Shown: positions 1 to 39,381 of the stretch, piece by piece
Layout: each line of letters starts with the position of its first letter
How positions within the stretch are numbered: the stretch's first letter is position 1
From: Cyanobacteria bacterium REEB446
GTDB lineage: Bacteria; Cyanobacteriota; Vampirovibrionia; LMEP-6097
DNA: 50,875 nt
Direction: 5' to 3'
Assembly: GCA_018970325.1 (NCBI GenBank)
Contig: JAGWWP010000011.1
Location: 1-50,875 of the forward strand
Program-made: the position numbers and the translations under genes
The notes under the pieces: model-generated
What the model was told of the DNA's origin: nothing
The model's input: the letters and a program-made list of their open reading frames with translations, nothing else
Databases searched by the model: none

Positions 1-56
1 GGGATATTTGTGCCTGAAACACTCTCTTTTACTCACTTATCAATAAATTATTAAAT

Positions 57-232
57 CTAATCAGCTGCAAACTCAATACTTGAAGCCTTTTTCATCATTT
101 CTTCTTGGCTCCTTTGTGTGATTTTAATTAAGCAACAGTGCCCTCTATTTGCTCTTCAGATACAGCATTCCCACTAGGCGTTATAATCTCCCCAGCTTCA
201 TTTCGATTAGCTTGAATATTACCAATTAGCAT
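57..232 (-). pseudogene. Possible small gene broken by a 1-nt frameshift
   Basis: I do not recognise it. Reading the minus strand from an ATG at 230-232 gives 34 residues ending in TAA at 128-130. In the -1 frame the reading continues as LIKITQRSQEEMMKKASSIE and on to TAG at 57-59. The combined span is 176 nt, one base short of 59 codons, so one missing base could have split a ~58-residue protein. The second part is amphipathic and helical. No function is suggested, and two chance short ORFs are an alternative. The rest of 1-274 shows nothing else I can support. Confidence 0.25.
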
Positions 233-4076: not shown

Positions 4077-4553
4077 GTGAAATTAGAAAAATTAAATCTC
4101 GCAAATACTCACCTAGTAAGCATTCTATTCTCTTTAATTTTTATTATATTTTTTTTTAAAGCTATATTTTTAAAATTCCTTTTAACCGCTTTAGTTTTTC
4201 AAATTTACCTCAGGGTTTTAAACTTCTCTTTCGCGTACATTCAAGCATTTTCTCGTAATCTGCATTCACAAAGCATCTCTGATCAAGAACCTGATGGGCG
4301 TGTAGCCGAACAAACAAGTGCAAGCTCAGAGCTGAGACTAGAGAATAGTAACCACACCCAACGTCCTTCTGAAATGATTAACAGTATAGTAACCTTGAAA
4401 ACCATCGGCTCTCTTTCACGAGCAATATTTTCAGCTTTCCTACTTTTTCTCCTCGTAAAATATTTTTCTATAGGTGCAGATGTAATACTCTTAGCGGTAT
4501 CTGGTCTTATTATTAGTTTTATTGCTTATGGTTACATAAGTAGCAGGAAATAG
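4077..4553 (+). CDS. Hypothetical membrane protein, 158 residues, with repeat insertion
   Basis: Not recognised. GTG start. There are hydrophobic segments at about residues 12-50 and two more at about 112-153, with a hydrophilic loop between them. Part of that loop (about residues 74-88, PDGRVAEQTSASSELRL) is encoded by a partial copy of the repeat family described elsewhere (consensus GRVAERTSSRLRR). The element therefore seems to have entered the loop in frame without closing the gene. A second repeat fragment lies just after the stop codon (4559-4581). No function can be assigned. Confidence 0.5.
   Translation: MKLEKLNLANTHLVSILFSLIFIIFFFKAIFLKFLLTALVFQIYLRVLNFSFAYIQAFSRNLHSQSISDQEPDGRVAEQTSASSELRLENSNHTQRPSEMINSIVTLKTIGSLSRAIFSAFLLFLLVKYFSIGADVILLAVSGLIISFIAYGYISSRK
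4296..4336. repeat. Partial palindromic-element copy inside the 4077 gene
   Basis: GGGCGTGTAGCCGAAC followed by diverged ACAAGTNCAAG and CTGAG blocks, matching the end of the copy at 28291-28413 read on the minus strand. Confidence 0.6.
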
Positions 4554-4558
4554 GCGGG

Positions 4559-4581
4559 CGAAAACGCAGAAAATGGAGTTG
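4559..4581. repeat. Fragment of the palindromic element
   Basis: CGAAAACGCAGAAAATGGAG is the reverse complement of the element's conserved AACTCCAATTTCTGCGTTTTCG block with one change. It lies between the stop codon at 4553 and the convergent fliR stop. Confidence 0.6.
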
Positions 4582-4595
4582 TGCAGCAGTCTCTA

Positions 4596-27800: not shown

Positions 27801-28301
27801 ATGAAGAACATTAAGCTTTATATTACTTCCCTAATCGTTTTAAGTTTTTTTAATTTAGCTGTTTTAAAAGCTGCTGACCCAGCTGAGGAGTTAAAAAATA
27901 CAAGAAAGCTCTTTAAAAATGCTAGTTACTCATTAAAGCATTTAAATGCATTCACAGATTCCGCTCTAGCACTTGATTATGAGTGTTATGCTAAAGCATA
28001 CAACGCTGCTGGAACCATGATAGGTGCTAAATTTGAAGGTAATCCTTTTAAAAAAATAAAATACTTCTCGAATGGTAAAAATGCCCTAGAAGAGGTAATC
28101 AGAGCGAATCCTGAGAATCCAGAATTTAGATTTATTAGATTAGCTGTACAGTTAAATATTCCTAAAATGCTGAGTTACAAGGATAATATTAAGGAAGATA
28201 CTACTTTAATAAAAGTCTTTCTAAATGCAGATAAACACGAAGATGAAGATTTAGCTACAATGCTTAAGGCTTTTTTAGAGCTTTATAGTTTGGGCATGTA
28301 G
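27801..28301 (+). CDS. Secreted helical (TPR-like) hypothetical protein
   Basis: 166 residues with a signal peptide (LYITSLIVLSFFNLAVLKAAD) and then alpha-helical, Leu/Asn/Lys-rich sequence with TPR-like spacing (ALEEVIRANPENPEFRFIRL). It follows the GH15-like gene by 9 nt. The last codons and stop (GGGCATGTAG) lie inside the left arm of the palindromic repeat 28291-28413, so the original C-terminus may have been altered. No function is assignable. Confidence 0.6.
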   Translation: MKNIKLYITSLIVLSFFNLAVLKAADPAEELKNTRKLFKNASYSLKHLNAFTDSALALDYECYAKAYNAAGTMIGAKFEGNPFKKIKYFSNGKNALEEVIRANPENPEFRFIRLAVQLNIPKMLSYKDNIKEDTTLIKVFLNADKHEDEDLATMLKAFLELYSLGM

Positions 28302-28413
28302 CGGAACTTCAATTTCTGCGTTTTCGTCGTCCTCATAATCCTCATGTACCTTAAGTACACTGCGGTCATTCGTCCTCCTCAGCCTTGAACTTGTTCGTTC
28401 GGCTACACGCCCA
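28291..28413. repeat. Palindromic repeat element, copy 1 (intergenic)
   Basis: Arms 28291-28307 and 28397-28413 pair over 17 positions with 2 mismatches (TGGGCATGTAGCGGAAC / GTTCGGCTACACGCCCA). The ~90-nt core, read on the minus strand, is open in the frame giving SSRLRRTNDRSVLKVHEDYE and then DDENAEIEV. The arms contain the ends of both convergent genes: the stop of the 27801 gene and that of the lycopene cyclase gene. Confidence 0.85.
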
Positions 28414-29107
28414 GTTTGTAAGGAGAGCAGTCACGAGCAGTTCCAAAATACTCTACTAAAAACACATTCCAAATTAACATTACTCCACCATAAATAAAAT
28501 CCTCCACGGGAATCGTAAATGCTCTTATCGAAAGATTCTCAGCATTATTATAAAAGACTACTGGCTCATCAAAAGCAATCCCAGTAAGTAAACCATTCAC
28601 TATGAAAAATGGTATTAGAGTAACCAAATACATCAAATAAAAATTAGGCAAAAAAGATGATTTACGCAAAAATATTAAACTAATTGCCATAAATATACTG
28701 GTATAAAATGTATAAGCCCTATCATGGAAAATATAAGCTAAGGCAAATAGAAAGAGAGCTAGCCCAATATTCAAATAGCTAAAATTAAATCCCTCAAAAG
28801 GTTTCGGAAAATAATACTTCAAAACCTCGTAAGTAAATATACAAGCATAAGGAACACAGATAAAAAATAAAACCTCTTCTAAAGGCAGATTTAAAAATTT
28901 AATCCCACAAAGATATTTTTCCGTAAAACCCCAAACACCGAGGTAAGTGAAAATACTGTCCCAAACAACGAAAACTGTAAGAACTATGGCTACAGCCTTA
29001 AATATAAAAGGAAATAATTTATATAACTTAATCTTAGTCTCAAAGCTCAAACAAACTGGTACAAGCACGCTAAAAAAATTTATTAATAAGTAGGTAAAAG
29101 ACAGCAT
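28403..29107 (-). CDS. Lycopene cyclase (CrtY-type, lycopene cyclase domain)
   Basis: Seven-helix membrane enzyme cyclising lycopene ends to beta-ionone rings. The 234 residues carry the two repeated domain signatures: FVVWDSIFTYLGVWGF, LPLEEVLFFICVPYACIFTYE, and in the second half AFDEPVVFYNNAE and IPVEDFIYGGVML. This architecture (fused CrtYc/CrtYd, CarR-like) is common in Bacteroidota and actinobacteria/archaea and differs from plant/cyanobacterial CrtL. It lies downstream of the beta-carotene hydroxylase on the same strand, so the pair would give beta-carotene then zeaxanthin. Its final codons lie in the repeat element arm. Confidence 0.88.
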   Translation of the reverse strand: MLSFTYLLINFFSVLVPVCLSFETKIKLYKLFPFIFKAVAIVLTVFVVWDSIFTYLGVWGFTEKYLCGIKFLNLPLEEVLFFICVPYACIFTYEVLKYYFPKPFEGFNFSYLNIGLALFLFALAYIFHDRAYTFYTSIFMAISLIFLRKSSFLPNFYLMYLVTLIPFFIVNGLLTGIAFDEPVVFYNNAENLSIRAFTIPVEDFIYGGVMLIWNVFLVEYFGTARDCSPYKLGV

Positions 29108-29637: not shown

Positions 29638-29901
29638 CTAAGATAATTCTAGCAAAGGGCTATGCAGAGTTCGAGGTAATTTCTTACTGTCTTCTAGCCA
29701 CTGTTGCCGAACTTCAATTTCTGCGTTTTCGTCGTCCTCATGATCCTCATATAAGCTTGATAAATCAAGCTTGTATTTCCGCTTGCTCGCATATGACATT
29801 AATGTCGCATGCTCGGCATCGCTGGAAATTACCCGTACACTGCGGTCATTCGTCCTCCTCAACCTTGAACTTGTTCGTTCCGCAACAGTAGGTTTAGGCA
29901 A
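29638..29901 (-). CDS. Doubtful 87-residue ORF made largely of the repeat element
   Basis: Starts at TTG and ends 1 nt before the crtZ start. Residues ~8-66 are encoded by the repeat copy 29700-29889 (VAERTSSRLRRTNDRSV ... EDHEDDENAEIEV). Only the first ~6 residues and the last ~21 (QWLEDSKKLPRTLHSPLLEL) are outside it. It may be the remnant of a small gene upstream of crtZ into which the element inserted in frame, or simply an untranslated leader. I would not count it as a functional protein. Confidence 0.3.
   Translation of the reverse strand: MPKPTVAERTSSRLRRTNDRSVRVISSDAEHATLMSYASKRKYKLDLSSLYEDHEDDENAEIEVRQQWLEDSKKLPRTLHSPLLELS
29700..29889. repeat. Palindromic repeat element, copy 2 (long form)
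   Basis: Arms ACTGTTGCCGAAC (29700-29712) and GTTCCGCAACAGT (29877-29889) pair 12 of 13. The core matches copy 1 but carries about 80 extra nt (roughly 29750-29835), containing AAGCTTGataaatCAAGCTT, itself palindromic. The frame stays open through the extra segment. This looks like one element nested in another. Confidence 0.85.
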
Positions 29902-31417: not shown

Positions 31418-32515
31418 TCATAAATCTTTAGTACCCTCAGCAGCACGTAAAAGCCGATCATTAATGGCTTTACCCACAGAATCATAGGGAATAGGCATCA
31501 CGGCTATGCTATCTACGCCTAAACCCTCTAATTCATGCAAACTAGAAAAAAGCTTCGAGGCAGCTTCATCTAAATCAGCACTAGGACTAATATTTATAAT
31601 CTTTTGAAATGAAAATTTTAAATCACTTTCAGTAAGCTTACTTTGACTCTGAGTCAAAGATTCTGAAATAGACCCAAAAGCTATCAGAGCTTCATTCTCA
31701 CGAGGCTGATCATTAAAACTATAGTTTAAACGTAATTTACATTTAGGTGCATAATGCTTTAAAAGCATACCTGGAGACCTAATACTCTCATCCTGCTCTG
31801 GCAGAGCTATTTCACCAAGAATATTCTTTAATTCCATCACAGACACACTGCCATAGCGAAGTAATTTAGGTAAAGAACTACTTAAATCTAAAACAGTAGA
31901 CTCTAAGCCGCATTCGCAGTTACCACCATCCACTATCCACTCAAGACAGTGTCGTGGAACTTCAATTTCGGCGTTAATGCCTTTATAAAATGTTGATGAA
32001 ACTCCAATTTCTGCGTTTTCATCGTCCTCATGATCCTGAAAAAGCTTAGCCACATGAGCAGCAGAGCTAGGACTTAGTCTCCCAGAGGGATTCGCACTAG
32101 GCGCTGCTACAGGAGCAGCGAACTGCCTTAGTAATTCAAGCGTAAAAGGATGTCGTGGAATCCTTACTCCAGCAGTATTTAAACCAGCACAGACTATTTT
32201 AGAGATTCTAGAGTTTTTAGTTTTATTTAAAATTATAGTAAGCGGACCTGGCCAAAAGCTTTCAGCAAGCTTAATTACACGCTCATCATAAATTACATCT
32301 TTAAAAATCTCATCTAAATTAGCATAATGAGAAATTATAGGATTAAAGCTAGGTCTACCCTTGATTTTAAAAACTTTTTCCACGGCTTTAGTACTAGCGG
32401 CTGAAGCCGCTAAACCATAGACGGTTTCAGTCGGAATAGCGACTACGTCTTCTGAGTTTAAAAGCTCTAATGCTTTATTTAAGCTGTTTTGGCTGGTGTC
32501 TAGGATTTTTGGCAT
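31418..32515 (-). CDS. Threonylcarbamoyl-AMP synthase (Sua5/YwlC) with repeat-encoded insertion
   Basis: Makes threonylcarbamoyl-adenylate for t6A37 tRNA modification. The TsaC/YrdC domain shows DVVAIPTETVYGLAA, VFKIKGRPSFNPIISH, PGPLTIILNKTKN, RIPRHPFTLELLRQF and AAPSANPSGRLSPSSA. After the linker there is a Sua5 C-terminal domain (RSPGMLLKHYAPKC). Between the two halves of the YrdC domain, about residues 160-187 are encoded by a repeat-element copy (DHEDDENAEIGV and NAEIEV), just before IVDGGNCECGLESTVLDL. Removing it restores the usual spacing. Frame is intact, so the protein is probably made. Length 365. Confidence 0.88.
   Translation of the reverse strand: MPKILDTSQNSLNKALELLNSEDVVAIPTETVYGLAASAASTKAVEKVFKIKGRPSFNPIISHYANLDEIFKDVIYDERVIKLAESFWPGPLTIILNKTKNSRISKIVCAGLNTAGVRIPRHPFTLELLRQFAAPVAAPSANPSGRLSPSSAAHVAKLFQDHEDDENAEIGVSSTFYKGINAEIEVPRHCLEWIVDGGNCECGLESTVLDLSSSLPKLLRYGSVSVMELKNILGEIALPEQDESIRSPGMLLKHYAPKCKLRLNYSFNDQPRENEALIAFGSISESLTQSQSKLTESDLKFSFQKIINISPSADLDEAASKLFSSLHELEGLGVDSIAVMPIPYDSVGKAINDRLLRAAEGTKDL
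31954..32036. repeat. Palindromic repeat element, copy 4 (two half-copies inside the Sua5 gene)
   Basis: GTGGAACTTCAATTTCGGCG (about 31955-31974) and AACTCCAATTTCTGCG with following TCATCGTCCTCATGATCCT (about 32000-32036) are two tandem fragments of the same conserved block, giving NAEIEV and DHEDDENAEIGV on the minus strand. No convincing terminal palindrome remains. Confidence 0.75.
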
Positions 32516-34702: not shown

Positions 34703-34750
34703 TGACACTGTTACTAAACTCCAATTTCTGCGCTTTCGGTAACAGTATCA
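34703..34750. repeat. Palindromic repeat element, minimal copy
   Basis: Arms TGACACTGTTAC (34703-34714) and GTAACAGTATCA (34739-34750) pair 11 of 12. The 24-nt loop is the conserved block AACTCCAATTTCTGCG with following CTTTCG. It is the shortest copy and defines the minimal core. Confidence 0.75.
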
Positions 34751-36399: not shown

Positions 36400-39381
36400 C
36401 TACTCAACTCCTATTGTATTATCGCTTTTAAATATTTTCCAGTGACCTTCACTAATAAGGCTAGAAAGCTCATTAGTATTCGGATCTAAAACCACTAGCC
36501 TTATCCATTCATTATAGAAAAGGTTCTGTAAAACAGTGTTTTTAGAAATAATTTTCTTTACTCTATCTATCGGTGAAAAGATAAAGACTCTTAGCCTTAA
36601 AGGTCTATGATAAAGCTCATCATCAGCACTCATTACTGACTGCAACGCTAGTCCCGTGTAAAGATCACTAGCATTACCTTGCATAACCCCAAAGTTTCCA
36701 ACTATATTATGCGTAATTTTACTGCCACTACCGAAATTAACATTATCTACAGTAGAGAAGTAGTACTGGCTATTGATCCACTGAGTAACTACCATTGGTG
36801 CAGTCATAATAGTTTCTAAAAGTAAACCATTAGAGTCTTGGGTCCAGTCATAAGAGTGCATGAAAGCACGATTAGATAGATCGAGTCCTTTACTTAAATA
36901 ACGAGGACCGATAATAAAACAGGTGTTTCCAGCGAGTCCCCACTCTGGTCTTACTTCAGACCAATCCATAGACCTTCTCAGGGACTGCTCGCAAACTCCA
37001 ATTTCTGCGTTTTCGTCGTCCTCATGATCCTCATGTACGTTAAGTACACTGCGGTCATTCGTCCTCCTCAGCCTTGAACTTGCACCTTTGTGAGCAGTCC
37101 CCTCAACAGTGCCATTATCAGATTTAATTTCTACATCCTGATTAATATTACTCTCTAATTCTCTTGAAGAAAGGAAACTAAGCTGTCTAATAGCATTATT
37201 CTCTTTCTTAGCCTGCACTAATGATTCTTGTAAATCAGCTAGAAGCTTTCTTTGCTCACTTGTCTTAAGCTCATAATCATAAAACTCAAAATCATCAGTA
37301 GTCGTATTGTGCTCAGCGCCTATAAATAATGTAGAATCTGGAATATTAATTCCTCTTTTAGCAAGCTCTGATCTGATCTCTTGCTTATTTAAAATCTTCG
37401 CTAAAGCTTTAGCATTAACGCCTCCATGATTACCAGCACAGGCGCCACAGTCTAAAGCAGAAGCATAAGGATTATTCTCAGTAGTACTTCCATGACCTGA
37501 GAAGACCACTAATGGAGCAAAATTCTGCGTTAGACCCATTAACCTTAAAGCCATTTCAGAGAACAGTAACTGTTCTTTTTTAGCTAAACCTGTAAAAATA
37601 TGCTTCACTTCAGTACCACTAAGGTCTTCATCAGGAGTGCTCGCAGCATTTATTACTGTATCTTTTACATCAAGCATAGGCTCAAAGAAGATTTTAGGTT
37701 TAATCGCAGCTGAGATCCTGCTTAATAAAGCATTTAGAGAAGGGGTTAAAGTCCTAATCATCATACTAAGCATATAGAGTGGTCCAGAAGCTTCAGCGAA
37801 TATAAACGCAGATGCGATATTAGCTTTTAAAGCCTTATAGACATTAAAAATCGTTTTCAGTAATGAATTAGAATATTCATGCTGCTCAAGCTTATGTGAG
37901 CAAGAACTGTGTACTTGCTCATCAATAAAGTGTTTAGGCTTAATTAATACCGGGCAAGCATCTTTAAATTCAGCAGAACCATGCTCTTTGTAGCTTATCG
38001 GCAAGCCGAAAAAGCCAGCAAACCCTAATGTCTCAATTCTAGAATCAGCTTCAATACAGCGTCTTATCCCCTCTGATCTAACATCTATACAAAAAACCAT
38101 TTGAGCAAGCTGTTTAGAGTTTAATGAATTTAAAAAAAGTACTGAAGAATTATTAGAGGTAGATTTATCACCCACTAAAGATTTTCTGTAATTCCTATAA
38201 ATATCATCAACAATAGGCTTCTGAAAACTGTCTTCCCAAGCGGAAAGCCATATCATCGCCTCCCTTTCTAGAAAAATGTTTAGTGGAGCCCTGATTAAAG
38301 TTAACTCTTCATCAGTAAGTAAGGAGAAGTCAGCATAATAAAGGTTAGCAAGTGTGGTTTTTAATTTTTCATCTGTAAATAAATATCTTTCACGTTCTAA
38401 TTCCTCTGGAGACTTGAAATTTTTAGTTAAAACCTGCTTCGCTAAAAGCCTTTCTAATTCCTCAAAACAAGTCAACTGAATATTATTAACTCTAAAATAA
38501 TCAAACAAGAAAATAGCTTCAACACAAAGTCTAACAGCTAAATACTCCAATTTAGAAGCTGGATACTTTTTATATTCTGGAATATGAGCATATAGATGAC
38601 GCCATTTTATAAATGAAGCCCAGCCAGGAAGAGCTGCTAAACTAGCTTTTAAATACTCTTCCCAATCTTCTCTCTTGATACCAAGCGAATCAAGTAAAAC
38701 TATTAAAGCCCTTTCAGGGCAATCTGGAAGCTGTTCAAACCATTCACGTAAATGCTTATCTAGCTTTAAATCAGAATCATACAGTGCTAAAGCCTTCCAT
38801 GCAGCATAAAACCCTTTCTCTCTATTAGGCATCTGCCAAACAGATATGCCTTCATCAAAAAAATGATTAAAGATTTTAATCATATAATTATTAACATCAC
38901 CTAACAGATCACCACTCTCAACTCTTCTACTATGTGGGTAAACAGAAGGATTCGCTAAATTTTTAAACTCTAATTCCCTAGAAAAAAAGATCTCCCAAAG
39001 AAGTTTTTTTAAATTTATATCTTTATTTAAAACTTTTACATCTAATTCTATATCCTCTATCGCCTTCTCGAAATATTCATTCAAAGCAGCTAAGGATATT
39101 TCCTCTCTATCGTAGAGTTCTAAATATTTAGATTTTTTTAAAAAGCAATTAGCTGAAAAATATTTCTTAGCTTGCTTCGCTGCCTGAAGAAAATGCTTAT
39201 CTTCAAAGCCTTTCAAAGGATTTACAGCAATGAAAGTTTTTAAAGACCAGTAAGGAGCAATAATTTCAGAGGCATTCGAAATAAGTGCCTGCACCATAGC
39301 TGAATTGAATTTTTCAGATTCGAAATTATCTACGACTTCTTTTAATTTATTACTTAGATTATATTCGCTAAAAATATCCAT
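36400..39381 (-). CDS. dabA: DabA inorganic-carbon accumulation protein (DUF2309) with repeat insertion
   Basis: Cytoplasmic beta-carbonic-anhydrase-like subunit of the DAB complex, thought to hydrate CO2 unidirectionally using a cation gradient via DabB. All four zinc/active-site residues are visible: C431 and D433 (FCIDVRSEGIRR), H630 (VVFSGHGSTTENNP) and C645 (DCGACAGNHGG). The spacings of 2 and 15 are as in Halothiobacillus DabA2 (C351/D353/H524/C539). 993 residues, longer than usual, partly because about residues 760-800 are encoded by the palindromic repeat. The normal sequence resumes at MDWSEVRPEWGLAGNTCFI. The frame is intact. Second gene of the operon; GAGGA precedes the ATG. Confidence 0.93.
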   Translation of the reverse strand: MDIFSEYNLSNKLKEVVDNFESEKFNSAMVQALISNASEIIAPYWSLKTFIAVNPLKGFEDKHFLQAAKQAKKYFSANCFLKKSKYLELYDREEISLAALNEYFEKAIEDIELDVKVLNKDINLKKLLWEIFFSRELEFKNLANPSVYPHSRRVESGDLLGDVNNYMIKIFNHFFDEGISVWQMPNREKGFYAAWKALALYDSDLKLDKHLREWFEQLPDCPERALIVLLDSLGIKREDWEEYLKASLAALPGWASFIKWRHLYAHIPEYKKYPASKLEYLAVRLCVEAIFLFDYFRVNNIQLTCFEELERLLAKQVLTKNFKSPEELERERYLFTDEKLKTTLANLYYADFSLLTDEELTLIRAPLNIFLEREAMIWLSAWEDSFQKPIVDDIYRNYRKSLVGDKSTSNNSSVLFLNSLNSKQLAQMVFCIDVRSEGIRRCIEADSRIETLGFAGFFGLPISYKEHGSAEFKDACPVLIKPKHFIDEQVHSSCSHKLEQHEYSNSLLKTIFNVYKALKANIASAFIFAEASGPLYMLSMMIRTLTPSLNALLSRISAAIKPKIFFEPMLDVKDTVINAASTPDEDLSGTEVKHIFTGLAKKEQLLFSEMALRLMGLTQNFAPLVVFSGHGSTTENNPYASALDCGACAGNHGGVNAKALAKILNKQEIRSELAKRGINIPDSTLFIGAEHNTTTDDFEFYDYELKTSEQRKLLADLQESLVQAKKENNAIRQLSFLSSRELESNINQDVEIKSDNGTVEGTAHKGASSRLRRTNDRSVLNVHEDHEDDENAEIGVCEQSLRRSMDWSEVRPEWGLAGNTCFIIGPRYLSKGLDLSNRAFMHSYDWTQDSNGLLLETIMTAPMVVTQWINSQYYFSTVDNVNFGSGSKITHNIVGNFGVMQGNASDLYTGLALQSVMSADDELYHRPLRLRVFIFSPIDRVKKIISKNTVLQNLFYNEWIRLVVLDPNTNELSSLISEGHWKIFKSDNTIGVE
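36981..37101. repeat. Palindromic repeat element, copy 3 (inside dabA)
   Basis: Arms GGGACTGCTCGCAAA (36981-36995) and TTTGTGAGCAGTCCC (37087-37101) pair 14 of 15. The core is nearly identical to copy 1. It is in frame with dabA and contributes ASSRLRRTNDRSVLNVHEDH then EDDENAEIGVCEQS. Confidence 0.9.

Follow-up and report, generated by a model that had tools for sequence, protein, structure and literature searches.

The repeat described here is a mobile palindrome of the MITE type that resembles the Rickettsia palindromic elements (RPEs), and its presence in Vampirovibrionia, a class of cyanobacterial relatives that do not photosynthesize, is well supported. It was analysed in a window of 50,875 nucleotides, which is one entire contig of a 2.25-Mb draft genome (93% complete). 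The best explanation, which we regard as quite likely, is a non-autonomous MITE-like element that would be driven by an insertion sequence (IS), is tolerated in frame within genes and holds a hairpin module conserved across phyla. Protein-coding palindromes at such a scale were previously known from Rickettsia and Wolbachia and are now found in another phylum. Target duplications can be seen here, and a site empty in a congener and a candidate transposase are at hand as well, so that the mobility of such elements and the reason for their survival within proteins, both long open to question, become testable.

One repeat is common to all seven places for which the preliminary description had claimed a shared core, and it was found there as three full-length copies and four remnants, of unequal completeness. 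The features of the window are the following (R1 and R2 are the covariance models given below):

1-142, minus strand: end of a multi-copy IS, the candidate autonomous partner, with an IS terminal inverted repeat (TIR) GGCACTGTTGC equal to the outer 11 nt of TIR type B
4295-4323, plus strand: left-end remnant, type A, in frame in an unnamed ORF (4077-4553, plus strand), recognized by its inverted repeat
4559-4590, plus strand: right-end remnant, type D-like (another TIR type than that of 4295-4323), recognized by inverted repeats
28287-28291: AGTTT, left copy of the 5-bp target-site duplication, identical to 28413-28417
28292-28412, minus strand: 121-nt full-length element, TIR type A (GGGCGTGTAGCCGAAC), R1 145.2 bits, R2 match at 28308-28395 (E=1.2e-13)
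28413-28417: AGTTT, right copy of the 5-bp target-site duplication, identical to 28287-28291
29697-29892, minus strand: long-subfamily copy of 196 nt, TIR type B, whose apical loop holds an extra hairpin, R1 108.6 bits
31418-32515, minus strand: host gene Sua5/YrdC/TsaC (threonylcarbamoyl-AMP synthase; Pfam PF01300 and PF03481, TIGR00057)
31954-32036, minus strand: element remnants (right-end pieces) within the Sua5/YrdC gene, R2 match at 31961-32040 (E=0.028)
34704-34749, minus strand: internal-deletion derivative of 46 nt with both TIRs and right-end sequence, recognized by its sequence
36400-39381, minus strand: host gene of DabA, an inorganic carbon transporter subunit of 993 aa (Pfam PF10070, E=1e-236)
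36981-37101, minus strand: 121-nt full-length element, TIR type C (GGGACTGCTCGCAAAC), in frame within DabA, R1 136 bits, R2 E=1.2e-14

The copies at 28292-28412 and 29697-29892 are intergenic or at gene ends and the one in DabA is in frame, in agreement with the earlier claim that the repeat is found both between genes and in frame inside them. Derivatives of the 46-nt type recur outside the window (for example at L316). The long subfamily (189-202 nt), in which a second hairpin of about 75 nt is carried in the apical loop, was seen in all three congeners and, besides 29697-29892 of the window, at C20:38825-39023, C42:11990-12189, C48:18885-19075 and C68:1973-2162 of the window genome.

Blastn of the repeat against the whole window genome returned 50 matches (best E=2e-59), and 65 copies were recognized there by the covariance model R1, so that the repeat is not a product of chance; R1 also recognized 71 and 42 copies in two congeners (Vampirovibrionia), respectively, and the copies, about 65 genome-wide, are not confined to the window. 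From the outside inwards, the element is made up of a 16-bp TIR, CAAGTTCAAGGC loosely paired with AACGCAGAAATTG, a middle stem, ACCGCAG opposite TGAGGAT, and an apical stem with its loop. Four kinds of TIR are found on one core in one genome, namely type A (GGGCGTGTAGCCGAAC), type B (GGCACTGTTGCCGAAC), type C (GGGACTGCTCGCAAAC) and type D (GAGACCGCTGCACAAC). Both TIR arms covary within each kind (for type A, 12 double compensated versus 4 single broken changes), and the cores of type A copies differ by only about 7%. The core forms a hairpin in which two internal loops (CAAGGC/AACGCAG and ACCGSAG/TGAGGAT) are conserved and lie between covarying stems. As an observation apart, the middle stem of the consensus core in the window genus shows a single Watson-Crick pair at every third base with GA/AG mismatches between (NGA repeats), which is unusual in a palindrome. 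The element was also noticed to form tandem arrays that repeat every 126 nt (G001:C12:213143-213424, and C60:10515-10761 in the window genome). Many insertions stand directly behind the right end (..ENAEIGVCEQSS) of an older remnant, as if entering beside old copies; examples among the coding copies of the window genome are C41:8268, C22:31814 and C59:18918. Palindromes of TIRs lacking the core were looked at in the window genome as well, and the short ones inspected retain the right end of the element and are thus deletion derivatives.

Exact 5-bp target duplications flank 15 of the 53 full-length copies, with 0.83 expected from shuffled flanks, and among the same copies one 4-bp duplication and no 6-bp duplication was counted. 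An empty site is also at hand: the palindrome at C33:17956-18076 of the window genome is bordered by a duplicated CTCAG, and the congener G001 has TTATCTCAGGGTTATG, with a single CTCAG and the palindrome absent. The element has several properties of MITEs, being 121 nt long, free of transposase, bounded by 16-bp TIRs and accompanied by a duplication of fixed length (5 bp). In the window genus it is a non-autonomous MITE-like unit that duplicates 5 bp of the target on entering a new site. Correia/NEMIS, RUP and Coxiella QMITE1/2 are likewise small, transposase-free and provided with TIRs and a target duplication, and QMITE2, too, can lie in frame at the end of a gene (PMC5896051); in those IS-derived MITEs the TIRs are fixed, whereas here one conserved core is common to MITEs with unrelated TIRs across phyla. 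The REP/RAYT elements (GTAG or CGTC tagged) differ in being hairpins of 20-40 bp without target duplication, against 121 nt and 5-bp duplications here. No catalogued IS or MITE family matching the element was found, ISfinder lying outside the comparison.

An IS often forms the end of contigs of the window genome, and one stands at the start of the window (1-142). The other end of this IS, together with a transposase, was found in L244, and in the congener G001 both IS ends are on one element of about 1.15 kb with matches to DUF772 and DDE_Tnp_1 (IS1182/IS5-like), which is the only assembled copy seen and has a frameshifted transposase. The IS ends (GGCACTGTTGC and GAGACTGTTGC) coincide with the outer 11 bp of the TIRs at 11/11 positions for type B and 9/11 for type D, an agreement between MITE and IS that is limited to these outer ~11 bp. 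A 5-mer common to the right-end and the left-end flank of the IS was present in two of five right-end cases, and the IS that has the outer 11 bp of the element probably also makes a 5-bp duplication. With moderate confidence, the resident ~1.15-kb IS1182/IS5-like DDE transposase is proposed from these sequence matches as the probable mover of the element in trans.

The element and its duplication together amount to 126 nt (121+5), that is 42 codons. The phase of each gene was judged on the joined DNA from which the element and one duplication had been taken out. All copies well inside genes (30/30) have one and the same orientation and phase out of six possible, and the other copies are intergenic or lie no more than about 15 codons from a gene end; the reverse frame is open in many copies too, and is used by one copy only, near a gene end (frame +0 versus -0, p=6e-7). 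The frame kept open in the coding copies, +0, is the one in which the preliminary description had read the core as SSRLRRTNDRSV...HEDHEDDENAEIGV. Because of this single orientation and phase in 30/30 copies, the gene-internal copies are, as judged from their sequence, translated inserts, as with the RPEs of Rickettsia. The host genes include GuaA, GltX, GlyS, ValS, RadA, RibD, PurH, PdxA, TsaE, LepB, GltD, CysN, ArgJ and DabA. Across the insert in DabA the reading frame is open through 773 and 192 flanking codons, and residues ~733-799 are missing from the homologues of other genera (those of G004, G006 and G008 align to ~732-740 and resume near 787-803); at the identical place, DabA of the congener G001 has a shorter in-frame deletion remnant.

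Since the unit has a length of 126 nt and frame +0 is stop-free, one class of insertion lengthens the protein instead of killing the gene. An insertion in that one of the six combinations of orientation and phase would add 42 highly charged residues with survival of the gene, and selection would purge the gene-breaking insertions, leaving within genes only the tolerated class, as for the RPEs. Protein-level constraint on the insert peptide was not seen (14 synonymous and 63 nonsynonymous changes, with 50 and 180 possible, respectively). Tolerance is the simplest reading of the protein-internal copies, with one phase adding a charged loop. Alternatively, the insert might be skipped by RNA splicing or translational bypassing, by which its tolerance in normally essential genes, and the stability of the hairpin, would be accommodated; removal at the level of RNA or ribosome would not require a phase, and the 30/30 internal copies are in phase and stop-free and in-frame deletion remnants persist, so skipping is hardly probable at all.

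The RPEs are palindromes in frame within housekeeping genes and also in RNA genes (PMC2229807, PMC10969869). Compared by description, they and the coding palindromes of Wolbachia are like the present element in size (~100-150 bp) and in both kinds of location, and the presence of a palindrome of this size in frame in unrelated conserved genes (30/30 copies; GuaA, GltX, ValS and others) is a trait shared with them. The element differs in belonging to another phylum and in having clear 5-bp duplications and a candidate IS partner; for RPEs the target duplication was given as unknown (PMC2229807). A true RPE family, homologous to the Rickettsia elements and gained by transfer, would account for the size class, the palindromic form, the in-frame location in housekeeping genes and the copy of a sister genus in an RNA gene (a TPP riboswitch, see below), but among the core-bearing loci listed (80, considered next) none has a record title of Rickettsiales, and such homology is held to be very improbable. 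PARCEL repeats are also palindromic and protein-encoding (PMC2996958), and are unlike the element in forming a tandem amphipathic repeat domain rather than a dispersed insert.

The core was present in all nine genomes examined of the family of the window and in only 6 of the 185 other genomes sampled in the class. A pattern taken from the cores of the relatives (AACCGSAGT-loop-ATGAGGATT-CGNAG) was scanned over GTDB genomes, by which at least 117 stretches with the core were obtained. According to the record titles, the 80 loci listed belong to Chlorobiota, Bacteroidota, Pseudomonadota (including Legionella feeleii and Marinobacterium), Desulfobacterota, Campylobacterota, Acidobacteriota, Deferribacterota, Bdellovibrionota, a Troglogloeales bacterium and Vampirovibrionia. 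Because the pattern preselects loop b and CGNAG, their conservation in these loci does not count as independent evidence, which is provided only by CAAGGC and the stems: CAAGGC is upstream in 36/71 of the pattern-scan copies versus 1.6% of control stretches, and the apical pairing of these copies is 97% versus 78% after shuffling. For 49 aligned copies, 95.3% of the cells were paired versus 74.5% when shuffled and 23-43% when slid, and 13 base pairs showed double changes. These 49 sequences, none of them from the window genome or a close relative of it, served to build the covariance model R2; the model matched the window copies with E=1.2e-14 and 1.2e-13 and found 48 copies in the window genome, 54 in Chlorobium ferrooxidans, 24 in Legionella feeleii and 59 in Vampirovibrio (sp. 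isolate DET50b). It is well supported that the hairpin core is common to at least nine phyla and is not lineage-specific. The RPE-like, in-frame palindromic family that the preliminary description had seen in a Cyanobacteriota-related genome is thus supported, and it is not confined to that lineage, with the core in at least nine phyla and overlapping Rfam sX9. Blastn of a plasmid collection with the repeat gave no match, none of the viral contigs contained the core pattern, and a full-text search of the literature for the letters of the core or the TIRs gave no relevant paper; a text match of GTACATGAGGATT in a protocol for an RNA-protein device was probably a similar-looking MS2 hairpin and a coincidence.

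ERIC is a palindrome of 127 bp that encodes a 42-aa peptide and is found in genes (PMC2759123), and ERIC/IRU/RU-1 are like the present element in these respects. A small but real chance is given to the element being a member of the ERIC family or the ancestor of ERIC, to which the alignment of R2 to one E. coli ERIC would point, whole-length and in register (AAGGCG, GGAG..TAC..GTA..TGA, ACGCA), though weak (13.9 bits, E=0.0017 at that locus) and not significant at genome scale. Under default filters R2 had no match at E<=5, the sequence profile had none, and ERIC, which is a repeat of enterobacteria and vibrios, terminates in TA and has a TIR of 7 bp (PMC2229807), whereas the element has a 5-bp duplication and no fixed TA at termini or target.

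On the opposite strand, the apical hairpin of the element and one of its arms are covered by the Rfam family RF02228 (Xanthomonas sRNA sX9). The gathering score of sX9 was reached on the Marinobacterium element at L070 (44.1 versus 44), and five other loci with the element scored 31-35 bits; in the whole window no Rfam family, sX9 included, matched at the gathering threshold. Matches of RF02228 were located at L070 2992-3068, L100 5739-5813 and L049 3154-3224. A structured RNA, either an sRNA or a cis-regulatory hairpin, that is retained for regulation and multiplied only passively would agree with this overlap, the strong covariation and the fixed internal loops, but the copies duplicate their targets, have the ends of mobile elements, occupy unrelated genes and are missing from orthologous sites, and the window copies are below the sX9 gathering score; this reading is quite unlikely. 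A survey lists sX9 as one of the most prevalent bacterial sRNAs (PMC9029176), a prevalence that a mobile element would explain, and the literature found describes it as an sRNA with mobility unmentioned. From the extent of the overlap, the sX9 family appears to be the antisense of the 5' half of the mobile hairpin. The shared core suggests that an abundant Rfam 'sRNA' belongs to a mobile element, which bears on sRNA annotation in many genomes.

Outside the window genus the core is within other terminal repeats. With GGGCACCTC ends (Chlorobi and gammaproteobacteria), a duplication of exactly 4 bp was found in 10/15, so the duplication length follows the TIR type (5 bp in the window genus versus 4 bp with GGGCACCTC), as is expected if different transposases move the elements. 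In the genera g5 (G006) and g2 (G003/G007/G008), the cores are near-identical, every copy has an outermost stem of its own and a duplication is mostly not visible; in 12 copy pairs of G006, the cores are >90% identical and the outer 20 nt only 38% identical, each outer stem being self-complementary. Slow divergence of the outer stems is contradicted by these near-identical cores with unrelated stems. The core might instead enter the loops of pre-existing hairpins (e.g. terminators), and the outer stem would then differ from copy to copy, as the 12 pairs of G006 would suggest. This is contradicted at the one readable empty orthologue: an element of G003 (L348 635-871, G003:C29) splits a TPP riboswitch aptamer, and the orthologous riboswitch (L381 1513-1620, G008:C63) is intact and free of the outer-stem hairpin, so the outer stem came along with the insert. 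Two further orthologous sites match contiguously, with no room for a hairpin, and a low probability is given to entry into pre-existing hairpins. The copy-specific outer stems of G006 and G003/G007/G008 are not accounted for by a MITE with fixed TIRs.

Beyond the probably IS-driven MITE-like element of the window genus, the hairpin module would have long been carried as a passenger by many IS-derived MITEs and would persist because its folded single strand (RNA, or a DNA hairpin) would be recognised or tolerated. A wider reading is offered tentatively and may well be wrong: one structured hairpin module in at least nine phyla would be the exchangeable heart of unrelated IS-derived MITEs, with ends and duplication length varying with the transposase and internal loops fixed by a conserved factor that reads the folded strand; part of the module would have been misread as sX9, and in Vampirovibrionia the module would have turned into a protein-coding insert. 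Finally, a second dispersed palindromic repeat (CGTCATTGCGAGGAGCCGCAGGCGACGTGGCAATCTC) was noticed in the sister genus g2, in which it is abundant, being present in the left flank of L342 (G007:C44) and at many places in G003/G007/G008.
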